Position numbers and translations under genes: made by a program | Shown here: positions 2 through 11,710 of the stretch, piece by piece | Numbering within the stretch: position 1 is the stretch's first letter | Layout of the letters: each line of letters starts with the position of its first letter | Origin: Deltaproteobacteria bacterium | Lineage (GTDB): Bacteria > Myxococcota_A > UBA796 > UBA9615 | Direction: 5' to 3' | DNA length: 32,996 bases | NCBI GenBank assembly: GCA_023954745.1 | Contig: JAGSHC010000046.1 | Coordinates: 1 to 32,996 of the forward strand | Notes under the pieces: model-generated | The model's database searches: none | What the model was told of the DNA's origin: nothing | What the model saw: the letters and a program-made list of their open reading frames with translations, nothing else

Positions 2-3000
2 GGTGGCGCGGTCCACGGGGCCGGCCTGGTCCTGCTGGCGGTCGAACCCTCAGACGAACCGGGGGCAGCGGATCGACCCACCCGCATCGACCTCCGGGTT
101 CCGGGGCAGCCGCGCGCCGGCTCGTCGGTCCTCCCGGTCGCCATTCGCCCCACCCCCTGGGATCCGGCGCAACTGGGAGTGAGTCACGAGTGGCCGGGGG
201 GCTGCGAGATCCCGCCGCAGGCCGCGAGCATGGCTGTGGAGTTCACGGTGTTCGACGACGACGCAGATGGTGCCTGGGACATCTCCCTGGAGTTCGCCAA
301 CGCCGGTGAGCAATGGCAGCAGGGCACCGTGACCTGGGGAGAAGACGACGCGACGCAAGAGCTCCCCTTGCCGGCGTCCTCGGCGGGTGAGGCCCGGCGC
401 GCCCGCTGGCAGTGGGAGGCCGACGGAGCGGCCGGGGAACACGTCCAGGTCAGGGCGCGCCTCGCGCGTCAGGTGGCCGACCACGCAGCGGGATCCGTGC
501 ACTTCGGACCTCGCTACTCGGCGCCGGTCCGCCTTCGCCTCTACCCCGACGCGGATCGCGACGGGCTCTGGGACGGGGTCGAGGACTCGTGCGAACACCA
601 CGACCTCCTCGACTGCGACCAGGACGGAGCGACGCTCTGCTCGGGCGACGACTGCGACGACGCCGACCCACTGCGCCGGGTGGGCTTCCCAGAGGTCTGT
701 GACGGGTGGGACAACGACTGCCTGGACGAGACCTGGGCCCAGACCGACGACGGCACCCAGGTCCCGGGCGAGCCAGACGCCGATGGGGACGGTCAGCGGG
801 TCTGCGCGGGCGACTGCGACGACACGAACGACCGCAAGAAGGGCGCCCTCGACGGCGAGGCTGCCGCGGAGAGCCGGTGCCTGGACGGCATCGACAACGA
901 CTGCGACACCGCCATCGACGACCTGGACCCCGACTGTGTGGGCTCGGGCGAGCTGGCCTCCCTGGACTGTCTCGCCGGATACGCCCAGACCGGCAGCGCC
1001 AGCCTTCTCCTTCCCTTCCTGCTGCTGGTGCCCATGCGCCGTCGGCGACGGGGCCGCGAGAGGGGCCCGCACACGGGAGCCCTGCTCGGGCTGGTCGCCG
1101 CGCTCCTCCTCCCCTCGGCGGCCTTTGGGCAGTCGGGCGGACCCGATGCGTCGGGGTACACCTTCTCCTCGACGCCTGCCCTGTTCGTGGACCTGCAGGC
1201 CCTCGTCGGTCCCGCCCCCACCGACGCGCAGCAGGTCGCCATGGGCGACGACAGCACGTGGGTCGTCGACCTCGCGGCGGAGACCACCTGGGCCGGCTTC
1301 CCCTTCTACGGCAACACCTATCCCTTCCTGGTCATCGACTCCAACGGAAAGATCAACTTCGACCCGCTGGCGACCTCGGACGGGACCAACGACTGCCTGC
1401 CCGTGAGCGTCTCGACGCCCGGGGCGGAGGCGGACATTGCGGTGCTCTGGGACGACCTCGACCCCTCCGCATCGACGTCTGGCGGAGTGTTCACGTGGTT
1501 CGACGCAGTGAACGACCGGTTCATCGTCTCCTGGGAGGGTGTGCCCTGGTTCGGGACCTTCGACGAGGTGTGGGTGCAAGCCCACCTGTTCGGCAACGGG
1601 GACGTCGAGGTCCACTGGGACACCGTGGATGCGGCGGGCGACCCTCCCTGGGCTCGCGGCGGCGGCGCCACCGTCGGCATTCAAGATGCGGTGGGCGGCA
1701 CCCAGGGCTTCTCCAACGTGCTCGCGTACTCCTGCGACTCAAAGGAGTTGAGCGATGCCTCCGCCACGACCTTCGCCGCGTGCCCGGACCTGGACGGTGA
1801 CGGATGGTCCACCTGCGCCGGCGACTGTGACGACTCCCTGGCGACGGGCCTCACTGCGTCGCCAGACCTCGAGGAGGTCTGCGATGGCATCGACAACGAC
1901 TGCGACGCCACGACCATCGAGACCATCGACAGCGACTTCGACGGACAGAGTGTCTGTGACGACGACTGCGACGACGACAACGGCCTCGTCTACACCCCCG
2001 CGCCCGGCGAAACCAACGAGACGTGCGACGGCTTCGACAACGACTGCAACGGCGTCGTGGACGATGGGTTCGACGACGACGGCGACGGGCAGTACGAGTG
2101 TGGAACGGACTGCAACGACGAGGACGCCAGCGTGTACCTGGGCGCCCCCGAGGTCTGCGACGGCGTCGACCAGAACTGCGACGGTCTCTTCTTCACGATG
2201 GACACGTCGTCGCCCGGGACCTCGACCAACACCGTGACCGATGCCTTGCGTGGCAACCGGTGGGAGGTGAGCGCGGCCACGAACCTGCATCGTTTCACCG
2301 CGCAGCTCGACGCCGCCACGGGGACCGAGATCACCTGGAGGGTCTACGAAGGCCCTGGAGGCGCCGCCGGTCCCTGGACCGAAGTCGCGAGCCAGACGAA
2401 CACCACCACGGCCCCGCCGGGTGCGGCGTGGCACACCAGCCCGCCGCTCCTCGTTCCTCTCGCCCAGGGATTGGCCTACGTCACCGCGGTGAGCTGGACC
2501 GGCGCCTCGGTCACCTACCCGTGGTCGCCGGTGAGCGGGCCGTCCCCGGTCTCCTTCGGATCACACCTCGGGGGCACCATCGCGAGCAGCGCCGCGAGCG
2601 CGCTCGCGGACTCGCCCAACAGCTACCCGACCCAGATCTTCACGGACGTGGAGACGGACACGGACGGGGACGGGGAGCTCCCCTGTGAAGGCGACTGCGA
2701 CGACCTGAACGCCAGCGTGCTCACCAGCGCAGCGGAGGTGTGCGACGGGCTCGACAACGACTGCGACGCCAGCACCACGTTCATCGACCCGGTGACCGGC
2801 CTCGACGAGACCGACGCCGACGGGGACGGTGACCCCCTCTGCGGGACGGACTGCGACGACGGGAACGCGAGCCAGAGCGGGACCGGGGTCGAGATCTGCG
2901 ATGGGCTCGACAACGACTGCGACAGCTCCACCCAGGCCGAGGGCGGAGAGATCGACGGCGACAACGACCTCTCGCTGTCGTGTGTCGATTGTGACGACAA

Positions 3001-6000
3001 CGACGCGAGCACCTATCCAGGAGCCGATGAGCTCTGCGACGGACAGGACCAGGCGTGCGACGGCATCGCTCCCATCATCCTCGCTCCACCGGACCCGAGC
3101 ATCACGAGCGCCGCCCTCACTGAGACCATCGGGAGCCGGTGGACCCCTCCGTCCACCACCTTCTTGAGCACCGTGGATGCTCTCCTCACCCTCCCGTCCG
3201 GGGTCGAGCTCACCTGGGAGGTGTACGAGGCGCCGTCGCCTCTCGGCCCCTGGACACCCATCGCCTCCGCCTCGAGCTTCCCGGTCAGCCAGGGCCAGCC
3301 GGGGTGGCAGTCGAGCCCGCTGTTCAACATCACGATGCAGACGGGCACGACCTATGCAGTGACCGTGACCTGGTCGAGCAGCCTCGTGACCTACGAGTGG
3401 GCGCCGGCTGCGACGGTGCTGCCCGCAGACATCGCTGGGATCTACGAGGGAGGCGTCGCCGCCGGGCCGTCGCCCCTGGCGCGCCAGTACGCCGTGCGGA
3501 TCACCACCGGCGTCGAGGCCGACCAGGACAGCGACGGAGCCCTCGGCTGCGGTGGCGACTGCGATGACGACGACCCCGCCACCTACCCCAACGCCGAGGA
3601 GGTCTGTGACGGGGTGGACAACGACTGTGACGGTTTCCTCCCTCCCCTGGAGGACGACGGCGACGGGGATGGACACATCGAGTGCCCGCCCGTGACCGGC
3701 AGCGCCTTGCTCGGCGGCGACTGTGACGACGCGAACGGCGACGTCTATCCCGGGGCCGCCGAGGTGTGCGACGGCGTCGACAACGACTGCGACAACGCCC
3801 TCTTCGTGGATCCTCAGACGGGAGTTGGCGAGAACGCCGACGGCGACGGCGACCTGTCTCTGATCTGCGACGACTGCGACGACGACGACAGCACGGTCTT
3901 TCCGGGCGCCGCCGAGCTGTGTGACGGACTCGACTCCAACTGCAATGGCATCGCAGGCGAGGTGGTGAGCGCGCTCCCTCCCACCGACTGGATGAGCAAC
4001 GCCAACCCGAACCGGACGCGCGGATCCCGGTGGCTCGTGTCCGAAGACGAGACGCTCACCCACCTCCGCGCGTGGCTCAACGCCCCGGAGGGCAGCGCCA
4101 TCGAGTGGCGTGTCTATGTGGGACCCACACCGGACGGCCCTTGGACCCTCAGCCAGAGCCTGCCGGACACCACCACCGGCTCGGGCTCCGGCTGGCACGT
4201 GAGCCCGCCGTTCGACTACCCCCTCGTCGCCGGGGGGAGCTACGCCACCACCGTCTCGTGGACCACGCCAGCCATCCGCTTTGGGATCAGCACCCAGACC
4301 AGTCGGCCCTTTGATGTCCCCATCGGGCAGTACTGGGGTCCCGCCCGGATCAATTTCAGCGGGTCCACTCTGGTCGGCACCAACTTCAACCAGTTCAGCG
4401 TGGAGCTGATCGCCGGAGACGAGGACGACGTCGACGGCGACACGTACCCAGCCTGCGACGACTGCGATGACGACGACTTCGCTCGCAACCCGGGGAGCGT
4501 GGAGGTCTGCGACGGAGTCGACAACGACTGCGACGGCGTGCTCTTCGTCGACCCCCTGACCGGCGACGGCGAAACGGACAGCGACGGCGACGGCGGGATG
4601 CCCTGCAACGGCGACTGCGACGACACCGACGCCAGCGTGCTGGCGGGCGGGGCCGAGGTCTGCGACGGCGCGGACAACGACTGCGACGGCGTCGCGGGCT
4701 TCCCGGGGGAGACCATCGACGGAGACGGGGACGGCTCTCTCGCGTGCAGCGACTGCGACGACACTGACGCGGCCCTCTACCCCTTGGCTCCCGAGACATG
4801 TGACGGCACCGACAACAACTGCCAGGGCATCCAGGGCGCGGTGAGCGAGCCCCTCCCCCCGGGCGTTCCCACGACCGTGAACAACGACCTGCGTGGCAGC
4901 CGTTGGACCCCGTCGGGGGACACGTTCATCAACCAGATCGAGGCGTACCTCACTGCGCCGAGCGGCTCCGATCTGCTGTGGGAGCTGTACGAAGGAGCCT
5001 CACCGACGGGCCCCTGGACGGCGGTGTGGTCCGGGACGAGCACGACCTCCGCAGCCAGCCCCGGGTGGGAGGTGAGCCCGCTCATCGGCCTGCCGCTGCT
5101 GACGGGGACGACCTACGCAACCACGGTCAGCCGGACCGACTCCGACGTGCTGGTCTGGTACGCGAGCGGCCCCACGCCCTACAGCGTCCCGGTGGGAACG
5201 TACGAGGGAGGGGTCATTGGATCGACCGGGGCCTTCGGCACGTCGACCGCCCAGTACTCGGTGCGCATCCTCGCCGACGCCGAGCTCGACAACGACGGTG
5301 ATGGCTTGCTCGGCTGTGACCCAGCCGACTGCGACGACGAGGACGCGGGCATCGCCGCAGGCCTCGCTGAGGTCTGCGATGGCGTAGACAACGACTGCGA
5401 CGGGATCCTGTTCTCAGACATCTACGGCGATGAGAGCGACGCCGACGGCGACACCTTCTTCGCGTGCCTCGACGACGACTGCGACGACACCAACGCGGAC
5501 TCATACCCCGGAGCCGACGAGCTCTGCGACCTGCAGGACAACGACTGCGACGGCTTCCTCTCGGGGGCCGAGACGACGGACGTCGACGGCGATGGCTCTC
5601 CGGTGTGCATCGACTGCGACGATCAGGAGTCCACGAGCTTCCCCGGCGCCCCGAAGCTGTGCGATGGCCTCGACAACGACTGCGACGGCTTCGTGGGACT
5701 CACCGTCGAGCCGGGGCCGGTCGTCACGGGTGGCAACGCGATCGTGTCCACGGGCACGGACCGCTTCCGTGGCAACGTGGTCGAAGTCACCACCACGACC
5801 CTCCTCTCCGCGGTCCAGACGGAGCTGAACACCCCCGTCGGTACGACCCTGACCTTCTCGGTCCTCGAGTCCATTCAAGGCAGCTGGGTCACGGTCGCGA
5901 GCGTGCAGATGGCGACCACCCAGTCGGGGATGAGGGTCCACGAGTCTCCCCCCCTGAACCAGACCCTGGTCGCCGGCTCGACCTACGGCGTGGGCGTGCA

Positions 6001-7213
6001 CTGGGACCTCCAGTCCAACTACGGCTGGGAGAACAACCTGACCCCCCTGGCCCAGTCCTTCGGCACCATCGTGAACGGCATCCTCCAGTTCGGAGTGCCG
6101 GGCCCCACGGGAGCGGCCCCGACCCTCTCCGGGCTCCTCTACTCGGTGACGATGTTGACCGGTGTCTCCGAGGACGACCTGGACGGGGATGGCGTCAGAG
6201 TGTGCGCCGGGGACTGTGACGACGACGACCAGGCCATCAACCCTGGAGCCGCCGAGACCTGCGACGACGCGATCGACCAGGACTGTGACGGCGTCGTCGA
6301 GACGTCGTCTGACCAGGACGGCGACGGCGAGCTAGACGAAGACTGTGGTGGGGCGGACTGCAACGACGACGACCCCCTCGTGTTCCCCAGCGCCGTGGAA
6401 GCGTGTGACGGCCTCGACAGCGACTGCGACGGAAGCATCCTCGGTGAGGCCGATGATGACGGCGACGGGTTCCGCATCTGCGGCGGGGACTGCGACGACA
6501 CCGCGGCGACCATCAACCCCACGGCGCTGGTGGAGCTCTGCGATGGCGCGGACACGGACTGCGACGGCACCATCCCCCTGGACGAGGCGGACATCGACGG
6601 AGACGGCTACCGCATCTGCAGCCAGCCGAGCGACTGCAACGACCTCGACGCCGCCGTGGCCCCGTTCCTCCTCGACGACTGCGGGGACGGGGACGAGAAC
6701 TGCAACGGCGTCGTCGACGACGACTGCCCGCCGGAGGAGAGCGACGACGACGACGTCACCGAGCCGGACGACGACGACAGCGCCAACGACCTCGACGGGG
6801 ACGGCGTGACCTGGCCCGACGACTGCGACGACGAAGACGACACGGTGTACCCCGGCGCCGACGAGATTTGCGACGACAAGGACAACGACTGCGACGGTCT
6901 CAAGCTGCCCTTCGAGGCGGACGTCGACACGGACGGGTGGATGCGCTGCGAGGGGGACTGCGACGACAGCCTCGCCGAGGTGCACCCCGAGGCGATCGAG
7001 GACTGCGGCGACGCGCTGGACAACGACTGCAACGGACTGACCGACGTCGAGGACGAGGCCTGTGACGACGCGGAGGGCGCTCCCGCCAGCGGGGTCACCT
7101 GCTACGGCTGCGGCGGCGAGCTCGCCTCGAGCGTCAGCGGGTTCTGGGTCCTGATGATCGCGGGGACCGGCCTGCGCCGTCGGCGGCGCGACCCCGCCGA
7201 GAGCCTGACCTAG
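2..7213 (+). CDS. Giant MopE-repeat surface protein, 5'-partial (apparent in-frame fusion of two exported proteins)
   Basis: The frame is open from the first full codon, so the gene enters from the left; GTG 179 is only an internal codon. The first ~330 codons hold two MopE-type repeats, then a hydrophobic segment (992-1033), an Arg cluster (1034-1060) and a second hydrophobic segment ending Ala-Phe-Gly (1073-1132). After that comes a NIDO-like beta domain (about 1150-1750; aromatic FPFYG, NGKINF and WDDLD motifs). About 21 'CDGxDNDCDG' repeats with CDDDD acidic loops follow, broken by five beta-sandwich modules. The C-terminus has CYGCGG, a helix and RRRRR, a MYXO-CTERM-like anchor. MopE repeats are linked to metal binding, so a cell-surface adhesive or metal-binding role is inferred. 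ATG 1034 could start a separate 2059-residue protein with its own signal peptide. The stop shares CTAG with the convergent gene. Confidence 0.85.
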   Translation, partial: GGAVHGAGLVLLAVEPSDEPGAADRPTRIDLRVPGQPRAGSSVLPVAIRPTPWDPAQLGVSHEWPGGCEIPPQAASMAVEFTVFDDDADGAWDISLEFANAGEQWQQGTVTWGEDDATQELPLPASSAGEARRARWQWEADGAAGEHVQVRARLARQVADHAAGSVHFGPRYSAPVRLRLYPDADRDGLWDGVEDSCEHHDLLDCDQDGATLCSGDDCDDADPLRRVGFPEVCDGWDNDCLDETWAQTDDGTQVPGEPDADGDGQRVCAGDCDDTNDRKKGALDGEAAAESRCLDGIDNDCDTAIDDLDPDCVGSGELASLDCLAGYAQTGSASLLLPFLLLVPMRRRRRGRERGPHTGALLGLVAALLLPSAAFGQSGGPDASGYTFSSTPALFVDLQALVGPAPTDAQQVAMGDDSTWVVDLAAETTWAGFPFYGNTYPFLVIDSNGKINFDPLATSDGTNDCLPVSVSTPGAEADIAVLWDDLDPSASTSGGVFTWFDAVNDRFIVSWEGVPWFGTFDEVWVQAHLFGNGDVEVHWDTVDAAGDPPWARGGGATVGIQDAVGGTQGFSNVLAYSCDSKELSDASATTFAACPDLDGDGWSTCAGDCDDSLATGLTASPDLEEVCDGIDNDCDATTIETIDSDFDGQSVCDDDCDDDNGLVYTPAPGETNETCDGFDNDCNGVVDDGFDDDGDGQYECGTDCNDEDASVYLGAPEVCDGVDQNCDGLFFTMDTSSPGTSTNTVTDALRGNRWEVSAATNLHRFTAQLDAATGTEITWRVYEGPGGAAGPWTEVASQTNTTTAPPGAAWHTSPPLLVPLAQGLAYVTAVSWTGASVTYPWSPVSGPSPVSFGSHLGGTIASSAASALADSPNSYPTQIFTDVETDTDGDGELPCEGDCDDLNASVLTSAAEVCDGLDNDCDASTTFIDPVTGLDETDADGDGDPLCGTDCDDGNASQSGTGVEICDGLDNDCDSSTQAEGGEIDGDNDLSLSCVDCDDNDASTYPGADELCDGQDQACDGIAPIILAPPDPSITSAALTETIGSRWTPPSTTFLSTVDALLTLPSGVELTWEVYEAPSPLGPWTPIASASSFPVSQGQPGWQSSPLFNITMQTGTTYAVTVTWSSSLVTYEWAPAATVLPADIAGIYEGGVAAGPSPLARQYAVRITTGVEADQDSDGALGCGGDCDDDDPATYPNAEEVCDGVDNDCDGFLPPLEDDGDGDGHIECPPVTGSALLGGDCDDANGDVYPGAAEVCDGVDNDCDNALFVDPQTGVGENADGDGDLSLICDDCDDDDSTVFPGAAELCDGLDSNCNGIAGEVVSALPPTDWMSNANPNRTRGSRWLVSEDETLTHLRAWLNAPEGSAIEWRVYVGPTPDGPWTLSQSLPDTTTGSGSGWHVSPPFDYPLVAGGSYATTVSWTTPAIRFGISTQTSRPFDVPIGQYWGPARINFSGSTLVGTNFNQFSVELIAGDEDDVDGDTYPACDDCDDDDFARNPGSVEVCDGVDNDCDGVLFVDPLTGDGETDSDGDGGMPCNGDCDDTDASVLAGGAEVCDGADNDCDGVAGFPGETIDGDGDGSLACSDCDDTDAALYPLAPETCDGTDNNCQGIQGAVSEPLPPGVPTTVNNDLRGSRWTPSGDTFINQIEAYLTAPSGSDLLWELYEGASPTGPWTAVWSGTSTTSAASPGWEVSPLIGLPLLTGTTYATTVSRTDSDVLVWYASGPTPYSVPVGTYEGGVIGSTGAFGTSTAQYSVRILADAELDNDGDGLLGCDPADCDDEDAGIAAGLAEVCDGVDNDCDGILFSDIYGDESDADGDTFFACLDDDCDDTNADSYPGADELCDLQDNDCDGFLSGAETTDVDGDGSPVCIDCDDQESTSFPGAPKLCDGLDNDCDGFVGLTVEPGPVVTGGNAIVSTGTDRFRGNVVEVTTTTLLSAVQTELNTPVGTTLTFSVLESIQGSWVTVASVQMATTQSGMRVHESPPLNQTLVAGSTYGVGVHWDLQSNYGWENNLTPLAQSFGTIVNGILQFGVPGPTGAAPTLSGLLYSVTMLTGVSEDDLDGDGVRVCAGDCDDDDQAINPGAAETCDDAIDQDCDGVVETSSDQDGDGELDEDCGGADCNDDDPLVFPSAVEACDGLDSDCDGSILGEADDDGDGFRICGGDCDDTAATINPTALVELCDGADTDCDGTIPLDEADIDGDGYRICSQPSDCNDLDAAVAPFLLDDCGDGDENCNGVVDDDCPPEESDDDDVTEPDDDDSANDLDGDGVTWPDDCDDEDDTVYPGADEICDDKDNDCDGLKLPFEADVDTDGWMRCEGDCDDSLAEVHPEAIEDCGDALDNDCNGLTDVEDEACDDAEGAPASGVTCYGCGGELASSVSGFWVLMIAGTGLRRRRRDPAESLT
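992..1132 (+). other. Internal double-hydrophobic junction: sorting-signal-like helix, Arg cluster, signal-peptide-like helix
   Basis: The upstream half (helix GSASLLLPFLLLVP then MRRRRRGRERG) resembles the C-terminal anchor of this family. The downstream half (MRRRRRGRERG, then GALLGLVAALLLPSAAFG) resembles a Sec signal peptide starting at ATG 1034. Both share the same Arg cluster and no stop codon separates them. I see no Shine-Dalgarno before ATG 1034. A membrane hairpin with the Arg loop in the cytoplasm would fit the positive-inside rule. Confidence 0.6.
2210..6172 (+). repeat. Five-copy ~880-bp coding super-repeat (beta-sandwich plus MopE repeats)
   Basis: Each unit has a ~140-residue beta-rich module followed by MopE repeats. 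The module starts near an RG(N/S)RW motif and includes WxVYEGPxPxGPWT, a W-(H/Q/E)-(T/V)-SP motif and a TYAxTVSW strand. The aligned RW codons (GV in the last copy) begin at 2258, 3137, 4028, 4901 and 5777, so the periods are 879, 891, 873 and 876 bp, all multiples of three. The last copy is the most divergent. The even period and clear sequence divergence suggest old tandem duplication maintained as protein. Confidence 0.8.
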
Positions 7214-10394: not shown

Positions 10395-10400
10395 AAAATA
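10395..10400 (-). promoter_or_regulatory. Putative leaderless -10 box for the acyltransferase operon
   Basis: On the minus strand TATTTT is followed by 7 nt (GCCGCCC) and the ATG. This is the distance expected if transcription starts at the start codon. No Shine-Dalgarno and no convincing -35 are seen. Confidence 0.4.
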
Positions 10401-10435
10401 GCGGAGGGGCCATCCCCTATGCTGGAACGGCACCG

Positions 10436-11710
10436 ATGCGCGCCTTCTTGCCAGCTCTCGCCCTGTTCCTGGTTGTACTCCCGGGCTCCGCCCGCGCTCA
10501 TATCGGCGCCAGCGGCGCAGCGGACGTGGCCGCGGGTTCGGCCGGAGACATCGCCCTCGAGGAGGCGTGGGGGCTGCTGCTGTCCGACGGCAGCGGCTTC
10601 GAGTGGGTGTGTCACGAGATCCTCACCGCGCCCGGCGTCGTGGTGCAGCCGGCGTACGTCATGAACGACGACGGCGTCCTGCTGGGGCTGACCGGGCTCG
10701 GGAACGGCTCGCGAGTCGACGGCGAGTCCGTGTATCGGAGTGAAGACGGATGCTCTTGGGTGCCGCCGGCGGGCCTCTCGGATCGGATCGTGGCCCAGGC
10801 GGCCTTCGCCCCGGGGATGCCCCAGGTGGCGTTGGCGGTCAGCGCTGACTACGCCGTGGACGGATACGACAACGTCATCGCCCGGTCCACAGACGCGGGC
10901 GCCACGTTCGAGGTGGTCCGCAGCGTGTCTGACGTGCTTCTGCGGGACGTCACCTTCGGAGCGGGGGGGACTGCGTGGGTCGTGGGGGTCGCTGAGGACC
11001 CGCCCGCTGCGCTCTTGTACCGGAGCGACGACGCAGGGTTGACCTGGGACAGCGTGCCCATCGATGGGTCAGGGGCCGAGAGCCTGTTCTTCCCGTCGCT
11101 GCTCGGGACCCACCCCACCGACGCGGACGTGTTCTGGCTGGGGTTGGACGGCAACAGCGCCGACCTCGTTCTCAGAACGAGCGATGGAGGAGACTCCTTC
11201 GCGCCGGTGTCGGGGGCCCCCGCGGCCTTGGTGGACCTCGTCCCCCAAGGGGACGGCGCCTGGATCACCTCGGGCGACCGGGAGCTGCTCTGGGCGGCGG
11301 ACGGAGTCGCGTTCGGTCCAGTGGAGGCCCCACAGGTCTGGGGGGGCGGGATGCGCGTCGGGACGCTGCTTCTCGCGGCGGACACGAGTCGGGAGCGCAC
11401 GGCGCTCTGGAGCCGCGATGGGGAGGAGTTCGCGCCGGTGTTCGAGACGGCCGACCTCCGCGCGCCGAGCTGCGCGCCGGGCACCGAGGTCGGTGACGAG
11501 TGTGCTCCCCTGTGGGACGAACTCGTGGTGTGGCTCGAGGCGAACATCCCGCCAGACGAGACCGGGGACGACGACGACTCGGGCTCGGGGGAGCCACCGC
11601 CGCCCGGATGTGGCGGCTGCGCCGGGGTCGGGCAAAGCGTCGCACCCTGGGAATCGTCATTCTTGCTGCTGGTGCTGGGGGCCTACCTTGTGCGCAGGAG
11701 AACGCAATGA
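10436..11710 (+). CDS. Secreted BNR/Asp-box beta-propeller-like protein with MYXO-CTERM-like anchor
   Basis: 424 residues. A Sec signal peptide (MRAFLPALALFLVVLPGSARA) starts at ATG 10436. Propeller-like repeats follow, each with an Asp-box-like signature: YRSEDGCSW, ARSTDAGATF, YRSDDAGLTW, LRTSDGGDSF and WSRDGEEF. Such repeats occur in sialidase-type, sortilin-type and Ycf48-type propellers. No catalytic residues are recognised, so the function is unknown. The C-terminus has an acidic linker (TGDDDDSGSGE), a PPPPGCGGC motif, a hydrophobic helix and a final RRRTQ, a layout like MYXO-CTERM proteins that are held at the surface after processing. The TGA stop overlaps the ATG of the following lipoprotein. 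The gene diverges from the acyltransferase across only 48 bp. Confidence 0.8.
   Translation: MRAFLPALALFLVVLPGSARAHIGASGAADVAAGSAGDIALEEAWGLLLSDGSGFEWVCHEILTAPGVVVQPAYVMNDDGVLLGLTGLGNGSRVDGESVYRSEDGCSWVPPAGLSDRIVAQAAFAPGMPQVALAVSADYAVDGYDNVIARSTDAGATFEVVRSVSDVLLRDVTFGAGGTAWVVGVAEDPPAALLYRSDDAGLTWDSVPIDGSGAESLFFPSLLGTHPTDADVFWLGLDGNSADLVLRTSDGGDSFAPVSGAPAALVDLVPQGDGAWITSGDRELLWAADGVAFGPVEAPQVWGGGMRVGTLLLAADTSRERTALWSRDGEEFAPVFETADLRAPSCAPGTEVGDECAPLWDELVVWLEANIPPDETGDDDDSGSGEPPPPGCGGCAGVGQSVAPWESSFLLLVLGAYLVRRRTQ

Follow-up and report, generated by a model that had tools for sequence, protein, structure and literature searches.

The window analyzed here, a stretch of 32,996 nucleotides from a Deltaproteobacteria bacterium, opens on the plus strand with a single reading frame at 2-7213, which codes for 2403 amino acids and for which we propose the function of a polyprotein precursor. 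As the window comprises contig C24 in full, this frame is open at its 5' end and begins beyond the contig; the host genome (assembly G000) comprises 7.1 Mb in 481 contigs. An initial annotation of the sequence had described two exported proteins joined in one frame through a junction of sorting tag and signal peptide, with MopE repeats upstream and a new N-terminal domain followed by more MopE repeats downstream. Both statements held up in the translation: the frame is free of stops throughout, and the MopE repeat model PF11617 matches it with 523 bits in 23 stretches on both sides of the junction. A Pfam search of the same frame returned no family other than the MopE repeats.

The first exported protein, referred to as half 1, occupies positions 2-967; its N-terminal part is cut off by the contig start and MopE repeats follow at about 590-940, as judged from the translation, PF11617 and homologues of this half. 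It runs into an internal MYXO-CTERM-like sorting tag (968-1051) with the tripartite layout of a Cys residue (968-970), a predicted transmembrane helix of the sequence SASLLLPFLLLVPM (995-1036), which lies in frame with the whole ORF, and an Arg cluster, RRRRR (1037-1051). As about 2000 residues continue in frame behind it, the tag is not located at the extreme C-terminus. The Arg cluster and the linker GRERGPHTG (1052-1078) together form the short loop RRRRRGRERGPHTG (1037-1078), which would be cytoplasmic according to the topology we infer and would serve as the positive region common to the anchor and the next signal. The latter is a putative internal signal peptide, ALLGLVAALLLPSAAFG (1079-1129), at the place where homologues of the second half have a Met and a signal peptide. 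Signal peptidase I is predicted to cut at 1129/1130 (A-F-G|Q), so that mature half 2 would start at 1130 with QSGGPD; the sequence from 1130 onward reads QSGGPDASGYTF... Anchor, Arg cluster and signal peptide thus stand in one frame with no stop between them, and we use this combination to define the junction class described below.

Half 2 begins with an N-terminal domain of 223 residues (1130-1798), for which a confident all-beta model was obtained (pLDDT 93). The domain has no Pfam match and no clear solved relative: Foldseek gave no match at E 0.001 and VIA-align reached Z-scores of 5.1 or less. Many exported proteins of the host's family likewise carry it at their N-termini. The rest of half 2 (1799-7099) consists of many MopE repeats alternating with beta-like modules of about 150 residues, as seen in the translation and with PF11617, and ends in a terminal MYXO-CTERM tag (7100-7210), CYGCGG...GFWVLMIAGTGLRRRRRDPAESLT, which scores 16.3-16.7 bits with TIGR03901 (cut-off 20) and reads CYGCGGELASSVSGFWVLMIAGTGLRRRRRDPAESLT directly before the stop.

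To compare the junction with chance expectation, 13 other junctions were aligned without the window and the resulting leave-one-out profile was scored against the six frames of the window. The junction ranked first with 17.6 bits and the true terminal tag second with 11.2 bits, and the maximum in 20 sets of shuffled or reversed window translations was 4.5 bits; the junction signal exceeds chance expectation. With the curated models the internal tag of the window stayed below the cut-off of TIGR03382 (12.8 vs 15.85 bits) and was not listed by TIGR03901 at E 10. The internal tags of two other junctions (L122, 22.0 bits; L151, 31.2 bits) exceed the TIGR03901 cut-off and several more come close to it. 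On the basis of these sequence scores the internal tags of the junction class belong with MYXO-CTERM, the copy in the window being a weaker one.

A first scan, which covered about 1 Mb of sequence with MopE genes taken from the host genome and mostly from G001, revealed five further in-frame junctions of the same form. For a wider survey, a profile of 14 junctions was run with stops read through over 284 genomes of the phylum, and 44 junctions composed of anchor, Arg cluster and signal peptide were verified in 24 genomes residue by residue, both visually and with a script; most of them were found with the in-frame profile, and the survey thus favours fused cases. Together with three more in G000 the number of verified in-frame internal junctions amounts to 47 in these 24 genomes. 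Three of them are located in G191, which is a single contig of 8.0 Mb. In-frame neighbours with an intervening stop were also listed (for example in contigs G001:C224, G049:C269 and G004:C395), which means that fused and split states coexist among in-frame neighbours. In the last of these contigs a homologue of window half 1 (L208) has a TAA after its Arg cluster and then a hydrophobic segment in the same frame.

Independent of the junction profile, we read onward from each of the 67 MYXO-CTERM domains of G000 that score above the curated cut-off, whatever follows. Sixty-three are terminal, with the protein ending within 40 residues, and four are internal (C255, C243, C200 and C462), all four being followed immediately by a second signal-like hydrophobic segment, which in one case is a lipobox. 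Adding the frames with lower-scoring tags in C12, C111, C117, C119 and the window itself, the host genome contains at least nine such ORFs. Closest in likeness to the window is C200, in which FG-GAP-like and MopE repeats, a tag and a signal are followed by the same repeats, a second tag and a stop. Its two MYXO-CTERM modules share one frame (L341, 2-3931), and the arrangement resembles an in-frame tandem duplication.

Homologues of both halves of the window ORF were found in related genomes, as the initial annotation had suggested looking for; a fused orthologue of the window junction was not found in 39 related genomes. Relatives of the half-2 N-terminal domain occur in 14 of the 39 genomes searched and elsewhere in the host genome, and nearly all of those read stand alone, each starting with a Met and a signal peptide of its own exactly at the junction position. 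Two contigs of the host genome (C214 and C58) and one of G001 (C207) carry a MopE gene directly upstream of a half-2-type gene, and in each case the upstream MopE protein ends with a hydrophobic helix, RRRR and a stop. Elsewhere the two are thus separate neighbouring genes, of which the window holds a fused version. In G001, the one genome in the sample that belongs to the host's genus, the flanking genes for glycerol-3-phosphate dehydrogenase and an acyltransferase are present with 64% and 75% identity, respectively, and there is no MopE ORF beside them, therefore the window ORF is not shared at this syntenic place. A further homologue of window half 1, L207 in G002:C35, is fused to a different, TPR-like second half, suggesting that first and second halves may exchange partners.

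Junctions conserved between genomes, a property not found for the window junction, were detected in two families, which came to light as two orthologous pairs (G000:C111 with G001:C497 and G000:C12 with G001:C414). Family II, the C12 type, is fused in all five genomes in which a profile of the second half scores high (G000 to G004), which represent four genera of one family, with open frames of 1437-1619 amino acids that in most cases start with a signal-peptide-like N-terminus. Fusion was also seen in a more distant homologue from G006, which belongs to another family of the order. Identity among the five genomes over the full length is 45-61% for half 1 and 33-53% for half 2, and the distance from the Arg cluster to the cut site varies between 22 and 45 residues, in frame every time. 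Family I, the C111 type, is fused in G000, G001 and G003 and, up to a contig edge, in G002; the relative found in G005:C720 stands alone and starts with a Met and a signal. In both families the cut motif AxA|(A/Q) is kept, and the sequences of linker and helix vary. Within the linkers, Arg codons dominate the GC content by codon position.

The second signals are of two chemical kinds, AxA and lipobox. Lipobox-like signals with Cys were found in G002:C124, G006:C88, G238:C53, G190:C33 and G223:C513, and a sixth is that of G000:C462; judging from this motif the second product would be a lipoprotein. Other second halves include OmpA-domain and TPR proteins. For half 2 of family II, a model calculated from a five-sequence alignment (pLDDT 78.6, pTM 0.55) consists of a helical region and a C-terminal eight-stranded barrel, with NspA as the best Foldseek match (E 1.8e-6) and OprF, OmpX and OmpA also among the matches. 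This half is therefore predicted from the model to hold an outer-membrane beta-barrel. An outer-membrane barrel or a lipoprotein must leave an inner-membrane hairpin, which argues for cleavage.

Taking these findings together, we consider the frame at 2-7213 to be a secretory polyprotein comprising two surface proteins with MopE repeats, which would be cut by signal peptidase and myxosortase, with a probability of roughly two in three. Half 1 would be exported by the Sec pathway through an initial signal peptide that probably lies beyond the contig edge, and its MYXO-CTERM helix may then hold the chain in the inner membrane, running from outside to inside. The Arg cluster would remain in the cytoplasm and also supply the positive region for the helix that follows, which would act as a signal peptide, re-enter the translocon from inside to outside and export half 2. 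A cut by signal peptidase I after AFG (1129/1130) would release half 2, and a putative myxosortase cut near Cys 968 in the first MYXO-CTERM would release half 1 for surface anchoring, so that the hairpin would stay behind after both cuts. Half 2 could be sorted likewise through its own terminal MYXO-CTERM, and one translation event would presumably yield two surface proteins in equal amounts. The proposal builds on the in-frame architecture, its recurrence and conservation, the lack of internal starts preceded by a Shine-Dalgarno motif and the presence of a myxosortase-family gene. The latter encodes a CPBP protease (G000:C32) that scores 106.6 bits with the Mrt_core model NF040914 (cut-off 100) but does not reach the thresholds of the MrtX, MrtC and MrtP models.

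We also regard it as fairly probable that the phylum, which the tags and the myxosortase mark as Myxococcota, uses a general class of such polyproteins, in which tag and signal share the Arg cluster and cuts by two different proteases, myxosortase and signal peptidase (I or II), yield a surface protein and another envelope protein in a 1:1 ratio. This other envelope protein would be an outer-membrane barrel, an OmpA protein, a lipoprotein or another surface protein, and at least nine genes of this kind would be present in G000. The weaker point for the window junction is its missing fused orthologue, so that a recent fusion of tandem genes, or else a faulty assembly, retains a certain probability.

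In that case the junction would be an accident specific to this locus: neighbouring MYXO-CTERM genes would have been joined by a recent deletion of the stop/start region or by a fault in an assembly of 481 contigs, with no selected role for a polyprotein. The separate tandem pairs of both gene kinds in C214, C58 and G001:C207 fit such an origin, as do the absence of an orthologous junction and of the gene itself at the syntenic locus of G001, but G000 contains eight other fused junctions, fused orthologues are conserved elsewhere, and the loop of the window is as short as in the conserved junctions. Furthermore, a single base error or small indel is insufficient to explain the junction. The initial annotation had stated that no single indel would separate the two genes, and in fact the nearest stops of the other two plus-strand frames around the Arg cluster lie 379 and 773 nt downstream and 325 and 695 nt upstream; a frameshift between two genes was rejected, as no plus-strand frame has a stop near the junction. 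The annotation had further proposed that one C-to-T change at 1046 would end the first protein. This change does convert the CGA codon to a TGA stop, but it fails as a repair into two genes: the only in-frame starts near the junction, GTG 1028 and ATG 1034, lie upstream of 1046, and between 1049 and the half-2 signal there is no in-frame ATG, GTG or TTG, the next being GTG 1187 inside the mature domain. Half 2 would be left with no start codon before its signal, therefore one base change cannot restore two exported proteins. Thus, of the two explanations offered in that annotation, the polyprotein has gained from the recurrence of the junction class, the conservation of orthologous junctions and of the cut motif, and the internal starts that are absent or lack a Shine-Dalgarno motif; the base error has lost ground, as two exported proteins would not result from a stop at 1046. 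On balance we think an accident of this kind unlikely.

The presence of ATG 1034 leads to another explanation, namely that half 2 is mainly produced by internal initiation at this codon (MRRRRRGRERG...) and the read-through product is minor. The codon is in frame and would provide a plausible signal peptide with a basic n-region, but no Shine-Dalgarno-like motif precedes it, and such a motif was not found before an internal start at any of the 44 junctions, compared with 19 of 30 stand-alone relatives. In addition, 20 of the 44 junctions have no in-frame ATG, GTG or TTG at all between the Arg cluster and the second helix. With internal starts absent or lacking a Shine-Dalgarno motif, half 2 is therefore not usually made by its own initiation, and half 1 would still have no stop; we judge this explanation to be highly improbable. 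It is also conceivable that the chain is never cut and persists as one protein, with a permanent inner-membrane hairpin of two helices linking two periplasmic halves. The geometry is compatible with a hairpin, but the AxA motifs are conserved although the linkers vary, some second signals are lipoboxes, the half-2 relatives bear ordinary cleavable signals, and the second half is in several cases a predicted outer-membrane barrel or OmpA protein, which would hardly be functional if tied to the inner membrane. A permanently uncut protein is accordingly very unlikely.

Bacterial exported proteins are usually viewed as one gene product each, and processed secretory polyproteins are rare exceptions. 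One of these is FbcH of Bradyrhizobium japonicum, a polyprotein of cytochrome b and c1 with an internal signal sequence that is cut by signal peptidase. It shares with the window the bacterial origin and an internal signal with signal-peptidase cleavage between two envelope proteins, but it has no C-terminal sorting tag and no sortase-like second cut, and its products are respiratory subunits and not surface proteins. Viral structural polyproteins, in which host signal peptidase cuts at anchor/signal hairpins, have the same succession of stop-transfer helix, short cytoplasmic loop and signal peptide between two exported proteins; in contrast to the junctions described here, they are viral, are processed at the eukaryotic ER and involve no myxosortase step. 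The MYXO-CTERM/myxosortase (MrtX) system, represented by TIGR03901, TIGR03382 and NF040914, shows the same Cys motif, hydrophobic helix and Arg cluster, and G000 has many tagged proteins as well as an Mrt_core protease. The difference is that the window tag is not C-terminal and that a second signal peptide and protein continue in frame.

Cleavage of MYXO-CTERM by the myxosortase of Myxococcus xanthus takes place close to the Cys (Guo, Haft and Wall, 2025; PMC11980579). The sections of this article drawn on here mention rare internal MYXO-CTERM motifs in general and describe one atypical protein, MXAN_5598, in which an internal MYXO-CTERM separates an adhesin from an outer-membrane barrel with an OmpA domain; the authors propose processing and surface anchoring of its N-terminal part and suggest that a gene fusion gave rise to it (PMC11980579). 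MXAN_5598 is thus similar to our junctions in its internal MYXO-CTERM, adhesin-like first half and outer-membrane second half, and those in G118, G191, G001:C40 and G001:C466 resemble it in having an OmpA second half. It differs in being a single atypical case, for which these sections describe no internal signal peptide after the tag (PMC11980579), whereas the junction class is recurrent and conserved and has an export signal after the tag wherever this was examined, and the second half of the window is itself a MYXO-CTERM MopE protein. Our literature search found no description of an internal MYXO-CTERM/signal-peptide junction class. New in this study are the frequency and conservation of the junctions, the variety of second halves, the second signal after each tag and the missing starts.

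If the junction class holds true, genes across the phylum link a surface protein with its envelope partner in one chain, whose translation would fix the ratio and the export timing of both, and the partners of many uncharacterised surface proteins would become predictable. The junction class would also provide a ready means to test if internal sites are cut by myxosortase and signal peptidase. Furthermore, it would mean that the fused ORFs of this class are mis-described by gene callers and localisation predictors. The window additionally contains a second MYXO-CTERM protein of ordinary layout on the plus strand at about 10400-11710; its signal-like segment AFLPALALFLVVLPGSARAHIGAS lies near 10442, and the terminal tag GCGGCAG...LLLVLGAYLVRRRTQ precedes its stop.
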